From Marivirga sp. ANT-B6 (GTDB taxonomy: Bacteria > Bacteroidota > Bacteroidia > Cytophagales > Cyclobacteriaceae): DNA of 42,861 bases. Positions 4,316 to 15,449 of the stretch are shown one piece after another. Location of the stretch: NCBI GenBank assembly GCA_001683905.1, contig LXQK01000054.1:1-42861 (forward strand). The letters are read 5' to 3'. Each line of letters opens with the position of its first letter. The first letter of the stretch is position 1. A program made the position numbers and the translations under genes. A model generated the notes under the pieces. It made no database searches, had not been told where the DNA came from, and saw only the letters and a list, made by a program, of their open reading frames with translations.

Positions 4316-6499
4316 ATGAAGCTTATTAATATATTAATTTTAGTGGGTACATTATCCTTTACCCATTTGTCTGCGCAGCAGCAACCTATCGAGCTGGAGA
4401 CGATTTATGCCGACGACGCCTTTTCTGAGAAATCTGTATATGGCGTCAACTGGATGAAAGATGGCAGGTACTACACGGCGTTGAAAAACGGTGAAATTAT
4501 AAAATACGCCATTACTACCGGAGAAACTGTAGAGACGATCGTTTCGGGTACTGCGTTGGTACCACAGGGCTCCCAAACACCCATAAAGATCAGTGGTTAT
4601 TCCTTTAGTCCATCCGAGAACCAGCTTCTGATCAGCGCAGAGAAAGAAAGCATTTACCGACGATCATCGAAAGCATACTTTTATGTATATGACATGCAGA
4701 AAAAGCGCCTCGTCAAGCTTGCTGAAGGCGGTAAGCAGTCGTATGCCACATTTTCTCCAGACGGGACCAAAGTTGCTTTTGTCAGGGATAATAACTTGTA
4801 CTATGTAAGTCTTGCCGATATGCAACTACACCAGGTGACCACCAGTGGCAAGGTAAACGAAATTATCAATGGTAGTGCGGATTGGGTATACGAGGAAGAA
4901 TTTTCTATGGCACAGGCCTTCGAGTGGTCACCCGATGGAAAGAACCTCGCCTATTTCACTTTTGATGAGACCAATGTGCCGGAATACAATATGCAATTGT
5001 GGGGTGAGCTATATCCAAGAGACTACGTCTACAAATATCCTAAAGCTGGGGAGAAAAACGCTACGGTCAGCATTACTGTATTCCATTTAGATGAGAAAAA
5101 AAGTGTCCCCATTGATCTGGGAGACGAATCTGACGTTTATATTCCCCGCATATACTGGACAACCGTTCGAGGCCTTTTATCGATCATCAAGATCAACCGG
5201 CTACAGAATAAGCTGGAGATATACCACGCGGATGTCAACAATGGCAAAGCCAAAAGAATCTTGTTGGAAGAAAGCGAAACATATGTAGACCTGGATTATA
5301 ATGATAATCTTCAGTATCTAAAAGACGGTAAATCCTTTATTAGAACCAGTGAGAAAGATGGCTATAAGCATATCTATCATCACAGGATGGACGGTACGCT
5401 GCTGAAGCAGGTAACAAAGGGAAAGTATGAAGTAACCAGCTTGGTGGGGATCGATGAGCAAAGAAATTTGATTTACTATGTATCCACCGAGGACGCTCCG
5501 ATTCAGCGCCAGCTTTTTTCCATCAAATTGAGCGGAAAGGGCAAGCAGAAGCTAACGCTTCAGGAAGGCGTTCATAATATTAATATGAATCCGGACTTTA
5601 CGTATTTTATCGATTCCCATTCTTCTTCCGAGCATCCGCTGCAGGTAACGTTACACCGGGCCCCTACCGGCGAAATGATTAAAGTGTTGGAAGATAACCA
5701 GGCCTTGAAAACCAGGTTAGATCAATATAATTATCAAACGAAAGAATTTTTCGACTTTGAAATTGGCGATGGCACCCTATTGCATGGCTATATGATTAAG
5801 CCGCCGACCATGGATGCGTCTAAGAAATATCCTGTGCTAATGTATGTATATGGGGGGCCTGGGTCTCAGCAGGTAATGGACCAATGGGGAGGCACCAGGG
5901 AGGCCTGGTTTAACCACCTGGCACAGCAAGGGTATATCGTTGCGTGTATCGATAACCGTGGTACAGGAGGAAGGGGCAAAGCGTTTAAACATATCACATA
6001 TGCTCAGCTCGGAAAATATGAAGTGGAAGACCAAATAGCCGGAGCAAAATATCTGGGTTCGCTTCCTTATATTGATGCAGACAGGATAGGGATTTGGGGC
6101 TGGAGCTATGGCGGATACATGTCTTCGCTGGCATTAATGAAGGGTGCCGATGTATTTAAAGCAGCAATAGCAGTCGCGCCTGTAACAAATTGGAGGTTTT
6201 ATGACACAATATATACAGAAAGATATTTAAAAACCCCACAGGAAAACCCCGGTGGATATGATGATAATTCGCCTGTCACACATGTCGATAAGTTGAAAGG
6301 AAGCCTATTACTTGTCCACGGTACAGGTGACGACAATGTACATTTTCAAAATGCTGTAGCACTGGAAGATGCTCTCATTGCAGCGGGCAAACAGTTTCAA
6401 ACCTTCTATTATCCCAACAGAAGCCATGGAATCTCCGGTGGCAACACTTCCCTGCACCTTCACCAAATGATGACCAGGTTCATTCTAAATAACTTATAG
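4316..6499 (+). CDS. Dipeptidyl peptidase IV family serine peptidase (S9B)
   Basis: This secreted prolyl dipeptidase of 727 residues removes Xaa-Pro dipeptides from peptide N termini. A signal peptide (about residues 1-20, ending LSAQQ) points to the periplasm. Residues about 40-480 form the beta-propeller, including DWVYEEEFS, the double-Glu motif that binds the substrate amino terminus. The C-terminal alpha/beta hydrolase domain has the nucleophile Ser597 in GWSYGGY, Asp672 in HGTGDDNVHF and His704 in NRSHGIS, so the triad is complete. It stands alone, with a strong terminator behind it. It probably serves peptide nutrition, as in Porphyromonas and other Bacteroidetes. Confidence 0.93.
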   Translation: MKLINILILVGTLSFTHLSAQQQPIELETIYADDAFSEKSVYGVNWMKDGRYYTALKNGEIIKYAITTGETVETIVSGTALVPQGSQTPIKISGYSFSPSENQLLISAEKESIYRRSSKAYFYVYDMQKKRLVKLAEGGKQSYATFSPDGTKVAFVRDNNLYYVSLADMQLHQVTTSGKVNEIINGSADWVYEEEFSMAQAFEWSPDGKNLAYFTFDETNVPEYNMQLWGELYPRDYVYKYPKAGEKNATVSITVFHLDEKKSVPIDLGDESDVYIPRIYWTTVRGLLSIIKINRLQNKLEIYHADVNNGKAKRILLEESETYVDLDYNDNLQYLKDGKSFIRTSEKDGYKHIYHHRMDGTLLKQVTKGKYEVTSLVGIDEQRNLIYYVSTEDAPIQRQLFSIKLSGKGKQKLTLQEGVHNINMNPDFTYFIDSHSSSEHPLQVTLHRAPTGEMIKVLEDNQALKTRLDQYNYQTKEFFDFEIGDGTLLHGYMIKPPTMDASKKYPVLMYVYGGPGSQQVMDQWGGTREAWFNHLAQQGYIVACIDNRGTGGRGKAFKHITYAQLGKYEVEDQIAGAKYLGSLPYIDADRIGIWGWSYGGYMSSLALMKGADVFKAAIAVAPVTNWRFYDTIYTERYLKTPQENPGGYDDNSPVTHVDKLKGSLLLVHGTGDDNVHFQNAVALEDALIAAGKQFQTFYYPNRSHGISGGNTSLHLHQMMTRFILNNL

Positions 6500-7564: not shown

Positions 7565-7616
7565 GCATAAAGCACTAAGACCAACTTGAGATCAAGTTGG
7601 TCTTAGTGCTTTATGC
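7565..7616. terminator. 25-bp perfect hairpin between convergent genes
   Basis: Arms 7565-7589 and 7592-7616 are perfectly complementary over 25 bp with a 2-base centre. The hairpin sits between the unknown membrane gene (+) and the aldehyde dehydrogenase gene (-). Its right arm contains the last codons and the stop of the dehydrogenase. There is no clear T run on either side, so termination in both directions is inferred from the position and the very stable stem. Confidence 0.6.
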
Positions 7617-9045
7617 ATATATTCTTAGACTCCGTAAAAAACTGCAAAGCTTCGAAACCGCCTTCTCTACCAATGCCCGATTGCTTTACCCCTCCAAAGG
7701 GCGTCCGCAAATCCCTTAGCAGCCAGCAATTTACCCAAACAATTCCAGCATCTAACTGCTGTGCCACCTGATGTGCTTTTTGCACATTGAGCGTCCAAAT
7801 GTTTGCTGCTAAACCATAAGGCGTGCTGTTGGCATCATGCAGAACCTCTTCCATCGTGTCGAAGGGCATGATGGAAACGACTGGTCCGAATATCTCTTCC
7901 TGATTACAACGGCAGTCATAAGACAACCCTTCTATCACCGTAGGCAAGATAAAAAAACCACCTGCATGCTCCTTTTCCATAAGGTGCCGCTTACCTCCTA
8001 TCAATATATTTCCTCCTTCTTCCTTCGCCAGCTGGATATAATCCATCACTTTTTGCGCATGAGCCTCAGAAATCACAGCTCCAATAAAGGTATCAGGATG
8101 CAATGGGTCACCGATCGAAAGCTGGGCGACTTCCTGAAGAAACGCCCGCTTAAATTTTCCGTAAATTTTCCTCTCCACAAAAATGCGAGAGCCGCACAGG
8201 CAAATCTCACCCTGGTTCAGGAAGCTCGACCTGACGGTGTTTTTTACAGCTTCATCAAAATCACAATCAGAAAAAACAATGGTGGGATTCTTTCCGCCCA
8301 GCTCCAGGGAAAGTCTTTTAAGCATCGGTGCAGCTGTTACTGCTATTCTTTTTCCTGTAGATGAGCCTCCTGTAAAAGATATCAAAGGGACCTCAGGATG
8401 CTCCACAATCGCTTGCCCGGCCTTTGCACCCAATCCATGGACAATATTCAGTACCCCCGCTGGCATGCCTGCCTGAATACATAATTCAGAAAACAAAAAG
8501 GCTGTCATGGGTGCCAGCTCCGAAGGTTTTGCCACCACACAGTTTCCCGCAGCCAGGGCGGGGGCTATTTTCCAGGTGAAAAGATAAAGCGGCAGGTTCC
8601 AGGGCGAAATACACCCAGCTACGCCTACTGGCCGATGTACTGTATAATTGGTCGCTAGGCCTTCCATGGGGTGAGCACTGGAGGCAAAGTGCAAGATAGC
8701 CGTTGCATAGAACCGCAGGTTCACCGATGCTCTTGCGATATCCATGTGCTTAGCAAGGGCTAGTGGTTTCCCGGTATCGATACTTTCAGCAAGCGCCAGC
8801 TCGTCCACATGGCTATCTACTAAATCCGCCAGGCTGAGTAAAAAGTCTGACCTTTTTTCGGCTGGCAGTCCCGCCCAGGCTGGAAAAGCGCGCCTGGCGG
8901 CATCCACAGCGTCGGCGACATCGCGCGCATCAGAGTCAGGGATTTTAGCATATACCTCACCTCTGGCAGGGTTGATATTATCGAGGTATTCACCTGATAC
9001 GGGTGGTTTAAGGGTACCGTCGATATAGTTGAGAAGGATTTTCAT
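7603..9045 (-). CDS. 2-aminomuconate 6-semialdehyde dehydrogenase (ALDH family)
   Basis: This 480-residue NAD-dependent aldehyde dehydrogenase has the oxyanion Asn150 in ISPWNLP, the NAD motif FTGGSSTGKR, the general base Glu248 in LELGGKNP and the nucleophile Cys282 in NQGEICLCGSR. The GEICLC pattern matches the ALDH8A1 / 2-hydroxymuconic-semialdehyde dehydrogenase group. Together with the ACMS decarboxylase encoded across the divergent promoter, the likely reaction is oxidation of 2-aminomuconate semialdehyde to 2-aminomuconate. It is the last gene of a three-gene minus-strand operon, 6 bases after the M19 gene. Other muconic semialdehydes remain possible substrates. Confidence 0.85.
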   Translation of the reverse strand: MKILLNYIDGTLKPPVSGEYLDNINPARGEVYAKIPDSDARDVADAVDAARRAFPAWAGLPAEKRSDFLLSLADLVDSHVDELALAESIDTGKPLALAKHMDIARASVNLRFYATAILHFASSAHPMEGLATNYTVHRPVGVAGCISPWNLPLYLFTWKIAPALAAGNCVVAKPSELAPMTAFLFSELCIQAGMPAGVLNIVHGLGAKAGQAIVEHPEVPLISFTGGSSTGKRIAVTAAPMLKRLSLELGGKNPTIVFSDCDFDEAVKNTVRSSFLNQGEICLCGSRIFVERKIYGKFKRAFLQEVAQLSIGDPLHPDTFIGAVISEAHAQKVMDYIQLAKEEGGNILIGGKRHLMEKEHAGGFFILPTVIEGLSYDCRCNQEEIFGPVVSIMPFDTMEEVLHDANSTPYGLAANIWTLNVQKAHQVAQQLDAGIVWVNCWLLRDLRTPFGGVKQSGIGREGGFEALQFFTESKNICIKH

Positions 9046-9051
9046 CTTTTT

Positions 9052-10050
9052 TTAAGACCAATGGTGCTGCATAAACTGCAAGACATTTCGATAACATAAT
9101 CCTTCCAAAGCCGGAAGCTTCACGGCCCGGTTTTCCAGACCTTGCAAGACAGCAGGATATTTTCCAGCATCCTCATGTTCTTCAAAGAACAGAGGAATGC
9201 GACTGTGGTCAGCAAAGTCATGGTGATAGAAAAAATCAGCTCCAAAGCACAATCCTGTGCCTTCACCTTGCTGCAGGCCGTACATTATATGATCATAGAG
9301 CCTATCAGGCCTCGCATCGTGTACGTAGGCCCTTAGGAAGTTGATGCCTATTAATCCCTTTCTTGTTATGATCTCATGTACGATTTCATCCGGCAAATTC
9401 CTTGCATGGTGATGGATGCTGCGAAAATTTGAATGGCTGGCAATCACCGGAAGATGTAGTCCTTTCTGATCGATATAATTCAGGATATCGAAGGCTAATG
9501 CATCACTGGTATGGGCAAGATCTATCGCTATCTGTCTTTTATCCAGGTATTCAAGCAGGTATTTTCCATCATCTTTAAGTCCACATGAAGCATAGTTTCC
9601 ACCACCAAACCGATTTTCTCCATGATGTGTAAAACTGATGTAGAAGATCCTGCCCAGGTTTTGGAGCATATTCTCTAGTTTCCTGAGGCCATTGTCCAGG
9701 CTTTCTTTTTCTTCACAAAATCCGGAAGCATTTTCGATAGCCGCTATCACACCAATGACACTTTGTTGTCCAAGATCTGTGACATCCCCTAAATCGTGGA
9801 TTTGCCTGACATGCTGTGCGTGGTCTTCGAGTAAGGCCGAAAATTGCTGGGTTTGGTTGAACGCTTTAAGGGTACTGCCAGACTCCACGGTAGCATAAAT
9901 TGCCATCACCTGTGCCTTTACATTTCCATTGAGCAAATGAGGTAATGCACACCCGATCTCCGGATTCAAAAAGCTGGCTTGCGGTACCGATGAAAGATAA
10001 GAAAGCAGATCGCAGTGGAGGTCGAAAACGGGTAAGTTGTAAGAATTCAT
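9052..10050 (-). CDS. M19 family (renal dipeptidase-like) metallohydrolase
   Basis: This 332-residue TIM-barrel zinc hydrolase is related to membrane dipeptidase. The metal ligands expected for M19 are visible: His12 and Asp14 in DLHCDLL, Glu106 in AAIENASG, His180 in DLAHTSD and His206 in ASHSNFR. Asp272 in FGADFFYHH matches the catalytic aspartate. No signal peptide is seen, so it is probably cytoplasmic, unlike the secreted relatives. It lies 10 bases after the SDR gene and 6 before the dehydrogenase gene, inside the kynurenine cluster. Its role there is not known. Hydrolysis of a dipeptide, or of a pathway amide such as N-formylkynurenine, is conceivable but unproven. Confidence 0.85.
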   Translation of the reverse strand: MNSYNLPVFDLHCDLLSYLSSVPQASFLNPEIGCALPHLLNGNVKAQVMAIYATVESGSTLKAFNQTQQFSALLEDHAQHVRQIHDLGDVTDLGQQSVIGVIAAIENASGFCEEKESLDNGLRKLENMLQNLGRIFYISFTHHGENRFGGGNYASCGLKDDGKYLLEYLDKRQIAIDLAHTSDALAFDILNYIDQKGLHLPVIASHSNFRSIHHHARNLPDEIVHEIITRKGLIGINFLRAYVHDARPDRLYDHIMYGLQQGEGTGLCFGADFFYHHDFADHSRIPLFFEEHEDAGKYPAVLQGLENRAVKLPALEGLCYRNVLQFMQHHWS

Positions 10051-10060
10051 AAGCTATTTT

Positions 10061-10849
10061 TTATAAGCATGCAGTTCGTCCCCCGTCTACGGGCAAATTA
10101 ATGCCGTTGATGTAGGCAGCTGCCGGCGAGGCTAAAAATGCCACAGCGACAGCAACTTCTTCAGCAGAGGCGAATCGGCCTGCAGGAATTTCCGCGATCA
10201 TTGCTGCGGCTACTTCATCGCGCGACTTTCCAGCTTTTTCGGCTTTATTGGCTATGAGCGACTCCAGCCGCCCCGTTTCTGTAAAACCCGGCAAAACATT
10301 GTTGATGGTAATACCGAAAGGTGCTAATTCCAATGACAAGGTCTTGGCCCAGCTCGCAACCGCGCCCCTGATGGTATTGGAAACCCCTAAACCCGGTAGC
10401 GGTGTTTTTACAGAAGTAGAAATAATATTAATGATCCTCCCGAAATGCTCCTTTTTCATCAATGGTACAATTTCCTGTACCAATATCTGGTTACAAATCA
10501 AGTGATTGGAAAATGCCTGCAAATACGCCTCTGTTTCAGCTTCTAAAGCTTTCCCGGCGGGAGGCCCTCCTGTATTGTTAATCAGGATATCAGCCGCCTT
10601 CCCTTGCGCAAGATAATTTTGTACCGTTAGCTTTAATTGCCCGGGTTCACTGAAGTCAGCTACAAGGATATCGTGCTGCTGACCCGAAGAGGTGTTTAAG
10701 CCAGCTTTTACTGCTTCGAGCTTTTGTTGATTCCTGGCTATCAGCGTTATTCCAGCGCCTAAAACAGCTAGCTCCTCTGCTATAGCCTTTCCAATGCCCT
10801 GTGTGCTCCCACAAACGATGGCTCTCTTTCCGCTTAAGTCTATATTCAT
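10061..10849 (-). CDS. Atypical short-chain dehydrogenase/reductase (SDR) lacking Tyr-Lys
   Basis: This 262-residue Rossmann-fold protein is the first gene of the minus-strand kynurenine operon. From the ATG at 10849 it shows the nucleotide-binding motif GSTQGIG (residues 14-20), the NNTGG variant of NNAG (91-95) and the active-site Ser region NIISTS (about 144). Where classical SDRs have YxxxK, this protein reads SNTIR, which places Ser157 and Arg161 at the Tyr and Lys positions. The C-terminal LPVDGG is normal. A second ATG lies directly upstream at 10852, and an in-frame start at 10882 is less likely. Dehydrogenase activity cannot be assumed. It may bind a nucleotide without classical catalysis. 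Confidence 0.85.
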   Translation of the reverse strand: MNIDLSGKRAIVCGSTQGIGKAIAEELAVLGAGITLIARNQQKLEAVKAGLNTSSGQQHDILVADFSEPGQLKLTVQNYLAQGKAADILINNTGGPPAGKALEAETEAYLQAFSNHLICNQILVQEIVPLMKKEHFGRIINIISTSVKTPLPGLGVSNTIRGAVASWAKTLSLELAPFGITINNVLPGFTETGRLESLIANKAEKAGKSRDEVAAAMIAEIPAGRFASAEEVAVAVAFLASPAAAYINGINLPVDGGRTACL

Positions 10850-10894
10850 CATACATGTTTTACAAAAGTCTGATCCTGCCAACCAAAACTGATG

Positions 10895-10920
10895 ATGGCA
10901 TTTAAATATGGCATTTAAAT
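10895..10920. promoter_or_regulatory. Tandem 13-bp repeat in the divergent promoter region
   Basis: ATGGCATTTAAAT occurs twice back to back (10895-10907 and 10908-10920), each copy holding the palindrome ATTTAAAT. It lies 46 bases upstream of the SDR start codon, between the two kynurenine operons. It could be an operator for a regulator of the cluster. An Lrp-type regulator such as KynR of Pseudomonas is a precedent, but no regulator gene is present here. Confidence 0.45.
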
Positions 10921-11016
10921 AACAACAAAAAATTTCCCGACTATCATACTGAAGGTCGTATTGTTTGTTGATAGCCGCTATGTCTTAATGCGGTGTTCGG
11001 TAAATATACAAATTGA

Positions 11017-11024
11017 TACCTTTG
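11017..11024 (+). promoter_or_regulatory. Candidate -7 box for the hydroxyanthranilate operon
   Basis: TACCTTTG matches the Bacteroidetes -7 consensus TAnnTTTG exactly and lies about 100 bases before the 3-hydroxyanthranilate dioxygenase start. No clear TTTG -33 box is visible at the right spacing, so this is tentative. Confidence 0.35.
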
Positions 11025-11127
11025 ATTTTTTAAAGCTTCCTATAAAGTGTCGATTTTTTGTTAAATTTAGCTGTTACTAAAACATTTTAATGCCTCAACA
11101 TTTTAACCGATTAAATTTCTTTCAAAT

Positions 11128-11646
11128 ATGGCGATCAGGAGACCTTTTAATTTTAGATCTTGGATAGATGAAAACAGGCATCTGCTCAAACCACCGGTTG
11201 GTAATCAGCAGGTGTATAAAGGCAATGATGATTTTATTGTCATGGTAGTAGGCGGCCCCAACAGCCGCAAAGATTATCATTTTAATGAAACGGAAGAATT
11301 TTATTATCAGGTAGAAGGAGATATTGTGTTGAAAATCGTCGAAGATGGCAAACCTGTAGATATTCCTATCAAAGAGGGAGAAATCTTCCTTCTACCTGGC
11401 AAGGTGCCTCATTCGCCCCGCCGCCCCGCCAATACGGTTGGTCTGGTGATGGAGACTTACCGCCATGAAGGTGCACAGGATGGATTTCAATGGTATTGCG
11501 AAAACTGTGGCTACAAGCTCTATGAAGAGTATGCCTATATTACTGATATCGTCACCCAGCTACCCCCCATTATGAACAATTTCTTTAATTCTATTGAAAA
11601 AAGAACCTGCGACAATTGCGGTACAGTGATGGAAAAGCCGGCATAA
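11128..11646 (+). CDS. nbaC: 3-hydroxyanthranilate 3,4-dioxygenase
   Basis: This 172-residue cupin enzyme opens the ring of 3-hydroxyanthranilate to give 2-amino-3-carboxymuconate 6-semialdehyde (ACMS). The iron ligands fall at the positions known for the Cupriavidus enzyme: His51, Glu57 and His95. The substrate-binding arginines Arg47 and Arg99 also match. The C-terminal rubredoxin-like iron site of bacterial members is complete: Cys124, Cys127, Cys161 and Cys164. It is the first gene of the plus-strand kynurenine operon, 48 bases ahead of the ACMS decarboxylase gene. The call is very secure. Confidence 0.96.
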   Translation: MAIRRPFNFRSWIDENRHLLKPPVGNQQVYKGNDDFIVMVVGGPNSRKDYHFNETEEFYYQVEGDIVLKIVEDGKPVDIPIKEGEIFLLPGKVPHSPRRPANTVGLVMETYRHEGAQDGFQWYCENCGYKLYEEYAYITDIVTQLPPIMNNFFNSIEKRTCDNCGTVMEKPA

Positions 11647-11694: not shown

Positions 11695-12747
11695 ATGTCA
11701 GCAACAGACCCTATTGCCATGGACCGCATGTTTAAAGTAGATATACACACCCATATTTTGCCAAAAAACTGGCCAAATCTGCGTGAAAAGTATGGCTACG
11801 GCGGTTTCATCAGGCTGGAGCATCACAAACCATGTTGTGCCCGGATGATGATGGATGATAAATTTTTCAGGGAGGTGCAGGACAACTGTTGGGATCCGAA
11901 GCAGCGCATGCATGAATGCAATACGACAGGGGTGGATGTACAGGTATTGTCTACCGTACCGGTGATGTTTAGCTATTGGGCCAATAGCCACCATGCCCTC
12001 GACCTATCTAAAATGCTCAACGACCATATTGCCGGCGTAGTGGCAGACTATCCTGACCGCTTTTTAGGGCTGGGAAACTTGCCCATGCAGGCTCCCGATC
12101 TGGCGATAAAAGAGCTTGAAAGATGTGTGAAGGAGCTAGGGTTGTCAGGTATACAAATTGGCACCCATGTAAATGAATGGAACCTGGAAGCGCCTGAGCT
12201 TTTTCCTATTTTTGAAGCTGCGCAGGACCTTGGTGCCTCAATATTTGTGCATCCCTGGGATATGATGGGAAAAGATGATATGCCTAAATACTGGCTTCCA
12301 TGGCTGGTAGGCATGCCTGCTGAAACGGCAAGAGCAATATGCTCCATGATATTTGGTGGCGTCTTCGAAAAATTGCCCCGGCTGCGTGTAGCCTTTGCTC
12401 ATGGTGGTGGCGCTTTTCCAGCAATAGTAGGCCGAGTGCAACATGGCTACCATGTAAGACCCGATCTTTGTGCAGTAGATAACCATGTAGAACCTCTCGC
12501 TTATCTGGGGCGTTTTTATTTCGATACGCTGGTACATGATCAAAACCTATTGCATCAGATTGTTAATTTAATGGGTGCTGATAAGATTGTATTAGGTAGC
12601 GACTACCCGTTTCCGTTAGGGGAAGAGGTGCCTGGAAAGCTTGTTGAGGCCTCTTCCTTAGACCATCAGACGAAAAAAATGATTTTAGGTTCCAATGCTT
12701 TGGATTGGCTTGGGCTTCAACAAGAAATATTTAAATCCAGATTTTAA
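11695..12747 (+). CDS. nbaD: 2-amino-3-carboxymuconate-6-semialdehyde decarboxylase (ACMSD)
   Basis: This zinc amidohydrolase-superfamily enzyme decarboxylates ACMS to 2-aminomuconate semialdehyde, steering flux away from quinolinate and NAD. Zinc ligands are visible in DIHTHILP (HxH), in FVHPWDMMG (His) and in [10 protein letters not shown] (Asp). The catalytic His is in FAHGGGAFP. From the ATG at 11695 it is 350 residues. In-frame ATGs at 11719 and 11728 would bring the N terminus closer to the usual start, MFKVDIHTH, and 11728 may be the true start. It sits between the dioxygenase and kynureninase genes, exactly as the pathway requires. Confidence 0.94.
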
Positions 12748-12766: not shown

Positions 12767-14059
12767 ATGAATTATAAAGCCAGTGAAGCTTTTGCTATAG
12801 AACAAGATCAGCAGGATCCGCTTAAAGACTTTAGGAAAAAATTTTTTATACCTCAGATTGAAGGAAAAGACTGCATTTATTTCTGCGGCAATTCGCTTGG
12901 GCTTCAGCCCAAAATAACGCGTATGTACATCGATGAAGAGCTACAGGTTTGGCAAAATTTAGGCGTTGATGGGCATTTTGCGTCAAAAAATCCCTGGGTG
13001 ACATACCAGAAGTTGCTCAAAAAGCCACTCGCCGCTTTGGTAGGGGCGCAGGAAGGTGAAGTTGTTGCTATGAATAACCTTACCAGCAACCTCCACCTAA
13101 TGCTGGTCTCCTTTTACAGGCCAAAAGGTGGGAGGTATAAGATAATCACAGAAGCGGGAGCTTTCCCTTCGGACCAGTATGCGCTGGAAACACAGGTGAA
13201 ATTTCATGGCTATGCCCCGGATGATGCCATTATAGAGCTAGTCCCAAGACCGGGTGAAGTTACGTTAAGGACCGAAGACATCCTTGCCGCCATCGAGCAG
13301 CATGGCGATGATGTAGCGTTGGTGATGATGGCAGGAGTGCAATACTATACCGGCCAGTGGTTTGACCTAGATAGTATTACAGCGACCAGTCACAGGGTAG
13401 GTGCGGTTGTTGGCTTCGACCTGGCCCACGCCATTGGTAATGTGCCACTACAGCTTCATGCATGGGGCGTTGATTTTGCTGTGTGGTGTACTTATAAATA
13501 TCTAAACGCGGGTCCGGGGAATGTGGGGGGCGCTTTTGTGCATGAAAAACATGCTACAGCGCCAGATCTGCCCCGCTTTGCGGGTTGGTGGGGGCACGAT
13601 GAAGCAGAGCGTTTTCTGATGCAAAAGGGTTTTAAGCCCATGGAAGGAGCCGATGGATGGCAGTTAAGCAATGCCAATATTTTACCTTTGTCAGCGCAAA
13701 GGGCGTCCTTAGATTTATTTATGGAGGCGGGAATGGATAAGGTACGGAAGAAAAGTCTTTTACTCACGGGCTACCTCGCCTATCTACTTCAGGAATTGAA
13801 GCAGGAAAAAGACCATTTCCATGTCATTACGCCCGACAATCCAACCGAAAGAGGGTGCCAGCTATCCATATCCATTGATCACGGTGGAAAAAAAATATTT
13901 GAAGCTATTGCAAGAGAAGGCGTTATAGCCGATTGGCGCGAGCCACAGGTCATCAGAATTGCCCCGGCCCCCCTTTATAATACTTTTGAGGAGGTTTATC
14001 GTTTTGCTGTGCTTTTCTCTAAAGCTTTACATGCCATTGAATCGAAAGTAGGATTTTAA
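12767..14059 (+). CDS. kynU: Kynureninase
   Basis: This 430-residue PLP enzyme cleaves kynurenine or 3-hydroxykynurenine to (3-hydroxy)anthranilate and alanine. Family signatures include YFCGNSLGLQPK near the N terminus, MNNLTSNLHLMLVSFYRP and the PLP lysine Lys244 in WCTYKYLNAGPG. GWWGHDEAERF and the C-terminal RIAPAPLYNTFEEV are also typical. It starts 19 bases after the ACMSD gene and is followed after 10 bases by kynurenine 3-monooxygenase. With the monooxygenase next door, 3-hydroxykynurenine is the likely substrate. Confidence 0.96.
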   Translation: MNYKASEAFAIEQDQQDPLKDFRKKFFIPQIEGKDCIYFCGNSLGLQPKITRMYIDEELQVWQNLGVDGHFASKNPWVTYQKLLKKPLAALVGAQEGEVVAMNNLTSNLHLMLVSFYRPKGGRYKIITEAGAFPSDQYALETQVKFHGYAPDDAIIELVPRPGEVTLRTEDILAAIEQHGDDVALVMMAGVQYYTGQWFDLDSITATSHRVGAVVGFDLAHAIGNVPLQLHAWGVDFAVWCTYKYLNAGPGNVGGAFVHEKHATAPDLPRFAGWWGHDEAERFLMQKGFKPMEGADGWQLSNANILPLSAQRASLDLFMEAGMDKVRKKSLLLTGYLAYLLQELKQEKDHFHVITPDNPTERGCQLSISIDHGGKKIFEAIAREGVIADWREPQVIRIAPAPLYNTFEEVYRFAVLFSKALHAIESKVGF

Positions 14060-14069
14060 ATGCATCAAT

Positions 14070-15449
14070 ATGGCGAATAAGCGTGCTTCTTTAGAATCTA
14101 TTACGCTATTAGGTGCTGGCCTGGTAGGTTCACTGCTGGCTATATACTTAAAAAGAAAAGGGTATCATGTAACTGTATTTGACAAACGACCCGACCTACG
14201 CAAAACTGGGGAAGTTGGTGGAAGGTCTATTAACCTGGCCCTGAGCCGGCGTGGCTACCGGGCGCTGGAAGAAGTAGGGCTGGCTGGAGAAGTACAAAAA
14301 CTCATGCTTCCCATGAAGGGGCGCATGATGCACGATGAAAAAGGAAATCTTACCCATCAGCCTTATGGCAAAGAGGGCCAGGTGATCAATTCCATCTCCC
14401 GGGGGAGGCTTAATGACTTACTTGTTACAGAAGCGGAAAAATTAGGTGTCAAAATAAATTTTGGAGAAAAATGTATTGATGTAGACCTGAAGGCAGCCAG
14501 GGTACAGCTTGAAAACAGTGCAACGGGGGCAGTCTCTAAAGTAACCTCCGATATTGTCATTGGTACTGACGGCGCTTTCTCCGCACTACGCAATGTGATG
14601 CAAAAGGAGGACAGATTCAACTATTCGCAATACTATCTGGAACATGGGTACAAGGAAATAAGCATTCCTCCTACGGCAAGCGGAGACTTCGCGATGGATC
14701 ATCAATCGCTGCATATCTGGCCACGCGGCAAATTTATGTTGATTGCTTTACCTAATCTGGATAAAAGCTTTACATGCACCTTATTTTTCCCTTTTTCTGG
14801 CCAGCCCTCTTTTGAATCTTTACATAACGAAAAGGAATTAGTGGCTTTTTTCCAAAGCACATTTCCCGATATCCTGGCCTATATGCCGGACTTAGCCGGT
14901 GAATACTTCAAAAATCCTACCTCCTCTCTTGTCACCATAAAATGCTATCCGTGGTCCAGCCACGGAAAGACCTTGATATTGGGAGATGCTTCTCATGCTA
15001 TTGTGCCCTTTTATGGGCAAGGGATGAACGCGGGCTTCGAGGACTGCCGCATTCTCAATGAAGTAATAGAAGAGCAAGATGGGGACTGGCCTGCGATCTT
15101 TGAAGCTTTTCAAAAACAAAGAAAACCGGATGCCGATGCTATTGCGACGCTGGCTTTTCAAAATTTTATTGAGATGCGTGATAAGGTAGCAGATCCGGAT
15201 TTTCTACTCAGCAAAAAAATAGAGGCCAGGCTGCACCAGCTATTCAGCACACGCTGGATACCACAGTATTCGATGACGACGTTTAGCGACGTTCCTTATG
15301 CGGAAGCCCTGGCCATAGGGCAGCAACAATCGGCAATCATGGAAAGGGTGATGAAGACCCCCAATATAGAAGTGACATGGGAGCAACTTGATTTTGAGGC
15401 TATCGTCAATGCATTAGACCAACGCAAAATCACCTTAAAAACTCAATAA
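14070..15449 (+). CDS. kmo: Kynurenine 3-monooxygenase
   Basis: This 459-residue FAD-dependent hydroxylase uses NADPH and oxygen to turn kynurenine into 3-hydroxykynurenine. The N-terminal FAD motif is LLGAGLVGSLLAIYLKRKG, followed by RSINLALSRRGYRAL, typical of KMO. The DG motif VIGTDGAFSALR and the second FAD motif GDASHAIVPFYGQGMNAGFE are present. The C-terminal tail has no long hydrophobic helix of the mitochondrial type. It is the last gene of the plus-strand kynurenine operon. Its final 7 bases overlap the end of the convergent outer-membrane protein gene. Confidence 0.95.
   Translation: MANKRASLESITLLGAGLVGSLLAIYLKRKGYHVTVFDKRPDLRKTGEVGGRSINLALSRRGYRALEEVGLAGEVQKLMLPMKGRMMHDEKGNLTHQPYGKEGQVINSISRGRLNDLLVTEAEKLGVKINFGEKCIDVDLKAARVQLENSATGAVSKVTSDIVIGTDGAFSALRNVMQKEDRFNYSQYYLEHGYKEISIPPTASGDFAMDHQSLHIWPRGKFMLIALPNLDKSFTCTLFFPFSGQPSFESLHNEKELVAFFQSTFPDILAYMPDLAGEYFKNPTSSLVTIKCYPWSSHGKTLILGDASHAIVPFYGQGMNAGFEDCRILNEVIEEQDGDWPAIFEAFQKQRKPDADAIATLAFQNFIEMRDKVADPDFLLSKKIEARLHQLFSTRWIPQYSMTTFSDVPYAEALAIGQQQSAIMERVMKTPNIEVTWEQLDFEAIVNALDQRKITLKTQ

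Follow-up and report, generated by a model that had tools for sequence, protein, structure and literature searches.

A cytoplasmic M19 dipeptidase-like hydrolase beside the kynurenine pathway genes of Marivirga: probably a travelling companion rather than a missing step

Several M19 enzymes of solved structure resemble the protein described here. Human renal dipeptidase (DPEP1; PDB 1itq) is a GPI-anchored surface enzyme, unlike our protein, which has no signal-like N-terminus. DPEP1 and Sco3058 (3id7, 3s2j) share its fold, and their binuclear-site residues align with its own at an identity of 20-22%. Lmo2462 from Listeria monocytogenes (3lu2, 3neh) is the best structural match to the model of our protein (Z 40.1, rmsd 1.9 over 299 residues), and it is also a short M19 protein of ~310 residues, with a dipeptide mimic in 3neh. 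Its identity is however only ~25%, it lacks the motifs NR.GGG and FGADFFY of our protein's subfamily, and it has TWN where Bacteroidota members of the subfamily have THH. Two enzymes of the kynurenine pathway also invite comparison. ACMSD (Amidohydro_2) belongs to the same amidohydrolase superfamily as M19 and is found in the same cluster, but it is encoded by a separate gene. KynB, which catalyzes the formamidase step, is also a binuclear zinc amidase but has a different fold and belongs to a different family (PF04199); its metal ligands are given as His50, His54, Asp56, and His60 (PMC4243253). In our search of the open-access PMC literature, no paper turned up that describes an M19 gene within a kynurenine cluster.

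The window analyzed is a stretch of 42,861 nucleotides from Marivirga sp. ANT-B6 (contig LXQK01000054.1), in which the M19 gene is an intact reading frame with an ATG start (Table 1). It is separated by 10 bases from an SDR gene and by 6 bases from an ALDH gene, in keeping with the original prediction of no more than 10 bases on either side. The gene had also been described as embedded in a kynurenine operon. It does lie in the kynurenine cluster, but it belongs to a minus-strand group (SDR-M19-ALDH) that is divergent from the plus-strand run HAAO-ACMSD-KYNU-KMO. The same order, SDR-M19-ALDH, is found with 3-base gaps between mechanical ORFs in two Roseivirga MAGs (L008, L073) from outside our sample of 193 genomes, and this tight packing in all three places suggests one transcript. 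A mislabelled ACMSD was ruled out, as the M19 protein matches only PF01244 and the Amidohydro_2 gene is a separate one. The SDR is conserved together with ALDH near HAAO, whether or not ACMSD is visible (window, L121-L125, L127-L129, L131-L133); a reductase has no expected place in the RidA route.

Table 1. Features of the Marivirga locus around the M19 gene (positions in the window).
Feature	Position	Strand	Basis
M19-family dipeptidase-like hydrolase, 332 aa	9052..10050	-	PF01244; structure model
SDR (short-chain dehydrogenase/reductase), upstream of M19	10061..10849	-	Pfam adh_short_C2; ATG at 10849 chosen, mechanical ORF reaches 10882
ALDH (aldehyde dehydrogenase), downstream of M19	7603..9045	-	best NCBIfam match is 2-hydroxymuconic semialdehyde dehydrogenase, below cut-off
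Intergenic region, divergent groups on either side	10850..11127	.	presumed to hold the promoters of both groups
HAAO (3-hydroxyanthranilate 3,4-dioxygenase)	11128..11646	+	PF06052; NF009763 over cut-off
Amidohydro_2 protein, taken as ACMSD by cluster position	11695..12747	+	PF04909 (E 2.5e-48); no NCBIfam match
Kynureninase (KYNU)	12767..14059	+	TIGR01814 over cut-off
FAD monooxygenase, taken as KMO (kynurenine 3-monooxygenase) by cluster position	14070..15449	+	PF01494; best NCBIfam match is VioC, below cut-off

The sequence places the protein in the M19 family. Peptidase_M19 (Pfam PF01244) spans residues 5-328 with an E-value of 3.8e-43 (148.3 bits vs a cut-off of 26), and the match covers profile positions 5-318 of 319. 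It is the only Pfam family found, with neither PF04199 nor an alpha/beta hydrolase family among the results, and no NCBIfam family, TIGR03035 included, matched at E <= 0.001. The protein carries H12, D14, E106, H180, H206, R217, and D272, together with H142. The first seven do not vary in any of the 30 aligned relatives and face the H/D/E/H/H/R/D of 1itq in the profile alignment. We take H12, D14, E106, H180, and H206 to be equivalent to the binuclear zinc ligands of M19, so that the earlier claim that all expected metal ligands are present holds, and H142, R217, and D272 presumably correspond to the substrate-side His, Arg, and Asp of dipeptidases. The position of H142 is occupied by Trp in the six Chlamydiae rows of the 30-relative alignment, which also contains two subfamily-specific invariant motifs, NR.GGG and FGADFFY. 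Judged by hydropathy, the N-terminus is not signal-like: the best 12-residue value is 1.03, compared to 2.29 for an S9 protein encoded in the same window, and the signal peptide or lipoprotein signal of exported or membrane M19 enzymes such as DPEP1 was not found. The absence of a signal peptide had been predicted, and the cytoplasmic M19 enzyme in the kynurenine cluster is real. A second M19 protein in the same genome (C215, L079) is of the classical type, with a lipoprotein-like N-terminus.

The structure model agrees with this assignment. Calculated from 30 sequences (the window and related loci), it has a mean pLDDT of 95.1 and a pTM of 0.93. All 17 of its top structural matches belong to M19 (Z 36.1-40.1; next match 17.2), as expected of an M19 TIM barrel, and none exceeds 26% identity. 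A profile search of the PDB with the M19 protein returned only M19 dipeptidases or amidohydrolases (16 distinct sequences). M19 membership of the 332-aa protein is therefore firm, unlike its exact substrate. Dipeptide hydrolysis is our best guess at its chemistry because, besides the uniform M19 matches, three of the 17 hold dipeptide mimics (3neh, 3ly0, 3s2j). The substrate of the subfamily may nevertheless differ, since its identity to solved M19 enzymes is only about one quarter and it has invariant motifs of its own. These proteins define a poorly characterized cytoplasmic M19 subfamily that is common to Bacteroidota and Chlamydiae.

The reading that we favor, with moderate confidence, is that of a cytoplasmic M19 dipeptidase for general dipeptide turnover, which stands beside tryptophan catabolism as an old arrangement and performs no step from tryptophan to 2-aminomuconate. 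By analogy with the family, the TIM-barrel protein would bind two zinc ions via H12, D14, E106, H180, and H206, and R217 would hold the C-terminal carboxylate of a small dipeptide while its amide bond is attacked by a metal-bound hydroxide. The gene is probably a travelling companion of the cluster and not a missing pathway step, because the cluster stands without M19 and M19 stands without the cluster. Comparative genomics here parts passenger from pathway in both directions, and the case cautions that one tightly packed gene is insufficient to infer a pathway step.

M19 orthologs are found in 27 of the 193 sampled genomes of the order (at least 243 bits; next match 54), and a scan of genome contigs yielded 78 M19 loci, of which 55 include HAAO. 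The original prediction proposed a check of synteny in other Cytophagales. M19 lies within 2.1 kb of HAAO in all ten M19-carrying genomes of the window's family, but it adjoins HAAO in none of the 17 other M19-carrying genomes of the order, though 14 of these have HAAO. Outside the window's family the gene occurs in unrelated contexts, and relatives in Chlamydiae and Saprospiraceae have other surroundings. Among 20 chosen genomes with M19 relatives, HAAO exceeds the cut-off in six (0/9 Chlamydiae, 1/6 Saprospiraceae or Lewinella, 5/5 others) and does not in 14; three further sub-threshold matches were left uncounted. M19 is more frequent in genomes with both HAAO and TDO (23/125) than in the others (4/68; p 0.017), but this comparison takes no account of phylogeny and we do not count it as proof.

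The M19 tree has 94 rows; left out of it were L068 (short), L079 (paralog), L080 (window copy), and L013, L014, and L032 (identical to L120, L118, and L119, respectively). The adjacency label changes seven times on this tree vs a shuffled mean of 29.7, and shared descent accounts for part of the adjacency signal; the order among the window, Roseivirga, Nafulsella, and Cyclobacteriaceae is not resolved on it. In the Cyclobacteriaceae clade HAAO is next to M19 in 50 of the 51 assessable loci, and KYNU is near HAAO in 37 of 49. The exceptions to adjacency in this set are L011, which has KYNU and no HAAO match, and L072, at a contig edge. In Cesiribacter (L078), HAAO and M19 are on separate contigs. 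Such constancy at HAAO (10/10; 50/51) is more than is expected of a bystander, and it is the one feature that pure bystander status does not explain.

The cluster is also found without M19. HAAO regions were compared in the eight M19-less genomes of the window's family and in 12 others. SDR, ALDH, HAAO, KYNU, and KMO occur together in seven of the eight (L121-L125, L127, L128). SDR and ALDH adjoin directly in three of the seven; in the other four (L121, L122, L123, L127) they are separated by one or two long proteins of ~680-710 aa, one of which was scanned and contains OmpA and PD40 domains. Among the 12 others, four genomes from another family (L129, L131, L132, L133) show the arrangement SDR-ALDH//HAAO without M19, each with an ortholog elsewhere in the genome. 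Thus, the slot between SDR and ALDH varies.

The distribution of RidA, searched in the 193 genomes with the L135 protein encoded beside ALDH and near HAAO, completes this picture. RidA is present in the window's genome and in all eight M19-less genomes of its family, and absent from the other nine, where M19 is still beside HAAO; the window's genome is the sole one of the 18 to have both. The RidA protein of the window's genome (G000:C79) is 70% identical to one beside ALDH and HAAO elsewhere, and it fits the 2-aminomuconate deaminase step. No ALDH or ACMSD match was found within the fetched regions of the named Algoriphagus-type loci, and SDR is likewise absent from the fetched regions of Algoriphagus-type genomes; the degradative branch seems to have been lost in the nine RidA-less, M19-carrying genomes. 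Within the window's family, the presence of M19 and that of the lower branch thus oppose each other: M19-less genomes keep RidA and, in seven of eight, SDR and ALDH, and M19 is kept where RidA is absent. The packing of the window's M19 between SDR and ALDH, which belong with ACMSD and RidA, would suit an enzyme acting on another lower-pathway amide, imine, or conjugate, for instance an alternative 2-aminomuconate deaminase. We consider this extremely improbable: RidA would serve the deaminase step in the window's genome, M19-less members of the family keep SDR and ALDH (7/8) and RidA (8/8), and nine M19 genomes retain M19 without RidA. The deaminase candidate itself was rejected, given that RidA is in the genome and that its presence opposes that of M19 within the family. 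On the favored reading, M19 stands between SDR and ALDH as an old arrangement of the lineage, which the two Roseivirga MAGs share. The degradative neighbors would have been lost in the Algoriphagus/Belliella group, with M19 left beside HAAO; in other genomes of the window's family M19 would have gone and the rest stayed.

It had been suggested that M19 hydrolyzes N-formylkynurenine or another pathway amide, and formamidase activity deserves separate treatment. All 18 genomes of the window's family carry HAAO and TDO, and none of them has a KynB-like match (TIGR03035, E <= 1e-20), which 26 of the 193 genomes do. The curated TIGR03035 cut-off was exceeded by 0/193 genomes and by 0/14 control genomes, and E <= 1e-20 was chosen instead. 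The window's genome (82.66% complete) encodes a single PF04199 protein, scoring 63 bits vs an arylformamidase cut-off of 223. It reads N-T-G-T-Y-I-D-C-P-F-H at the positions of the four KynB ligands, with Asn and Tyr replacing His50 and His54, and thus lacks two of the metal ligands named for KynB (PMC4243253). The TDO regions of 17 members of the family, surveyed by clustering and protein lengths with one neighbor scanned, contain no obvious formamidase. A separate formamidase gene co-regulated with the cluster, together with no activity on pathway amides, had been named in advance as what would refute the suggestion, and no convincing separate formamidase came from the KynB-type and TDO-neighbor searches. 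These results expose a gap: HAAO and TDO occur throughout the sampled family, yet no known bacterial-type formamidase was found.

M19 could be imagined to fill this gap as the non-orthologous replacement of KynB, a third kind of formamidase in the KynB-less Cytophagales of the window's family, with another enzyme acting in the M19-less members; its retention at HAAO even where the degradative branch seems lost would agree with such a role. However, a required kynurenine-pathway enzyme is expected wherever the pathway is present. Of the 125 genomes with HAAO and TDO, 102 have no M19, which shows that it is not a required formamidase; PF04199 is found in 86 of the 125, and 29 carry neither of the two. 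The occurrence of M19 does not significantly complement that of PF04199 (Fisher p 0.21), and M19 is also carried by five genomes that have a KynB-like protein. Within the window's family, eight of 18 genomes have HAAO and TDO without M19, and five of these also lack PF04199. As the eight have no KynB-like match either, they must use something else. The cluster persists without M19 in seven of the eight, and M19 orthologs occur where HAAO is absent. The protein itself belongs to neither established type: it is not a PF04199 protein with the His50, His54, Asp56, and His60 reported for KynB (PMC4243253), and its model has the M19 fold, not that of an alpha/beta hydrolase with the Ser-His-Asp triad of eukaryote-type formamidases. 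Moreover, the aryl formamide to be cleaved in N-formylkynurenine would be distant from the carboxylate, which is not the case in an M19 dipeptide. We regard formamidase activity of M19 as very unlikely, and the suggestion of a pathway amide as substrate is not supported; a pathway role for M19 is improbable. Beside TDO, a divergent acyl-CoA dehydrogenase is found in 16 of the 17 regions of the window's family (L083-L097, L099). In the one example scanned, the glutaryl-CoA dehydrogenase model is the best NCBIfam match, although below its cut-off. This arrangement hints that tryptophan may be routed through glutaryl-CoA.

A dipeptidase might still be dedicated to the pathway without catalyzing one of its steps. 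Such a feeding enzyme would act on imported dipeptides to free tryptophan or other amino acids, and it would share its regulation with the catabolism of tryptophan and with the synthesis of NAD from it. It would account for the stable adjacency of M19 and HAAO, including where RidA is absent, and for the tight SDR-M19-ALDH packing in the window and the two Roseivirga MAGs. A secreted-looking S9 dipeptidyl-peptidase encoded at 4316-6499, with similar proteins in 7/20 other HAAO regions, points the same way, but S9 is also present where M19 is elsewhere or absent. M19 orthologs in HAAO-less genomes also speak against a dedicated enzyme, as does the Algoriphagus/Belliella M19, which by eye seems to have a promoter-like block of its own, and there is no sign of tryptophan as a substrate residue. 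We consider dedicated feeding a tentative and rather unlikely alternative to general dipeptide turnover.

Other genes and loci encountered in the survey are of separate interest. The S9 protein is also found in L001, and its seven HAAO regions are L128-L133 and L139. In 46 of the 52 assessable Cyclobacteriaceae loci M19 is followed by a conserved protein of ~205 aa (L006:11021-11638 and relatives), for which there was no Pfam or NCBIfam match. One genome encodes an enolase-superfamily protein (MR_MLE; L120:5836-6846) ~2 kb past M19, which we take to be possibly a dipeptide epimerase. Another locus, L069, is labelled Bryobacterales; its M19 is of the Algoriphagus type, has an unusual 5' part, and nests in Algoriphagus on the tree. 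This contig is probably misbinned or chimeric.
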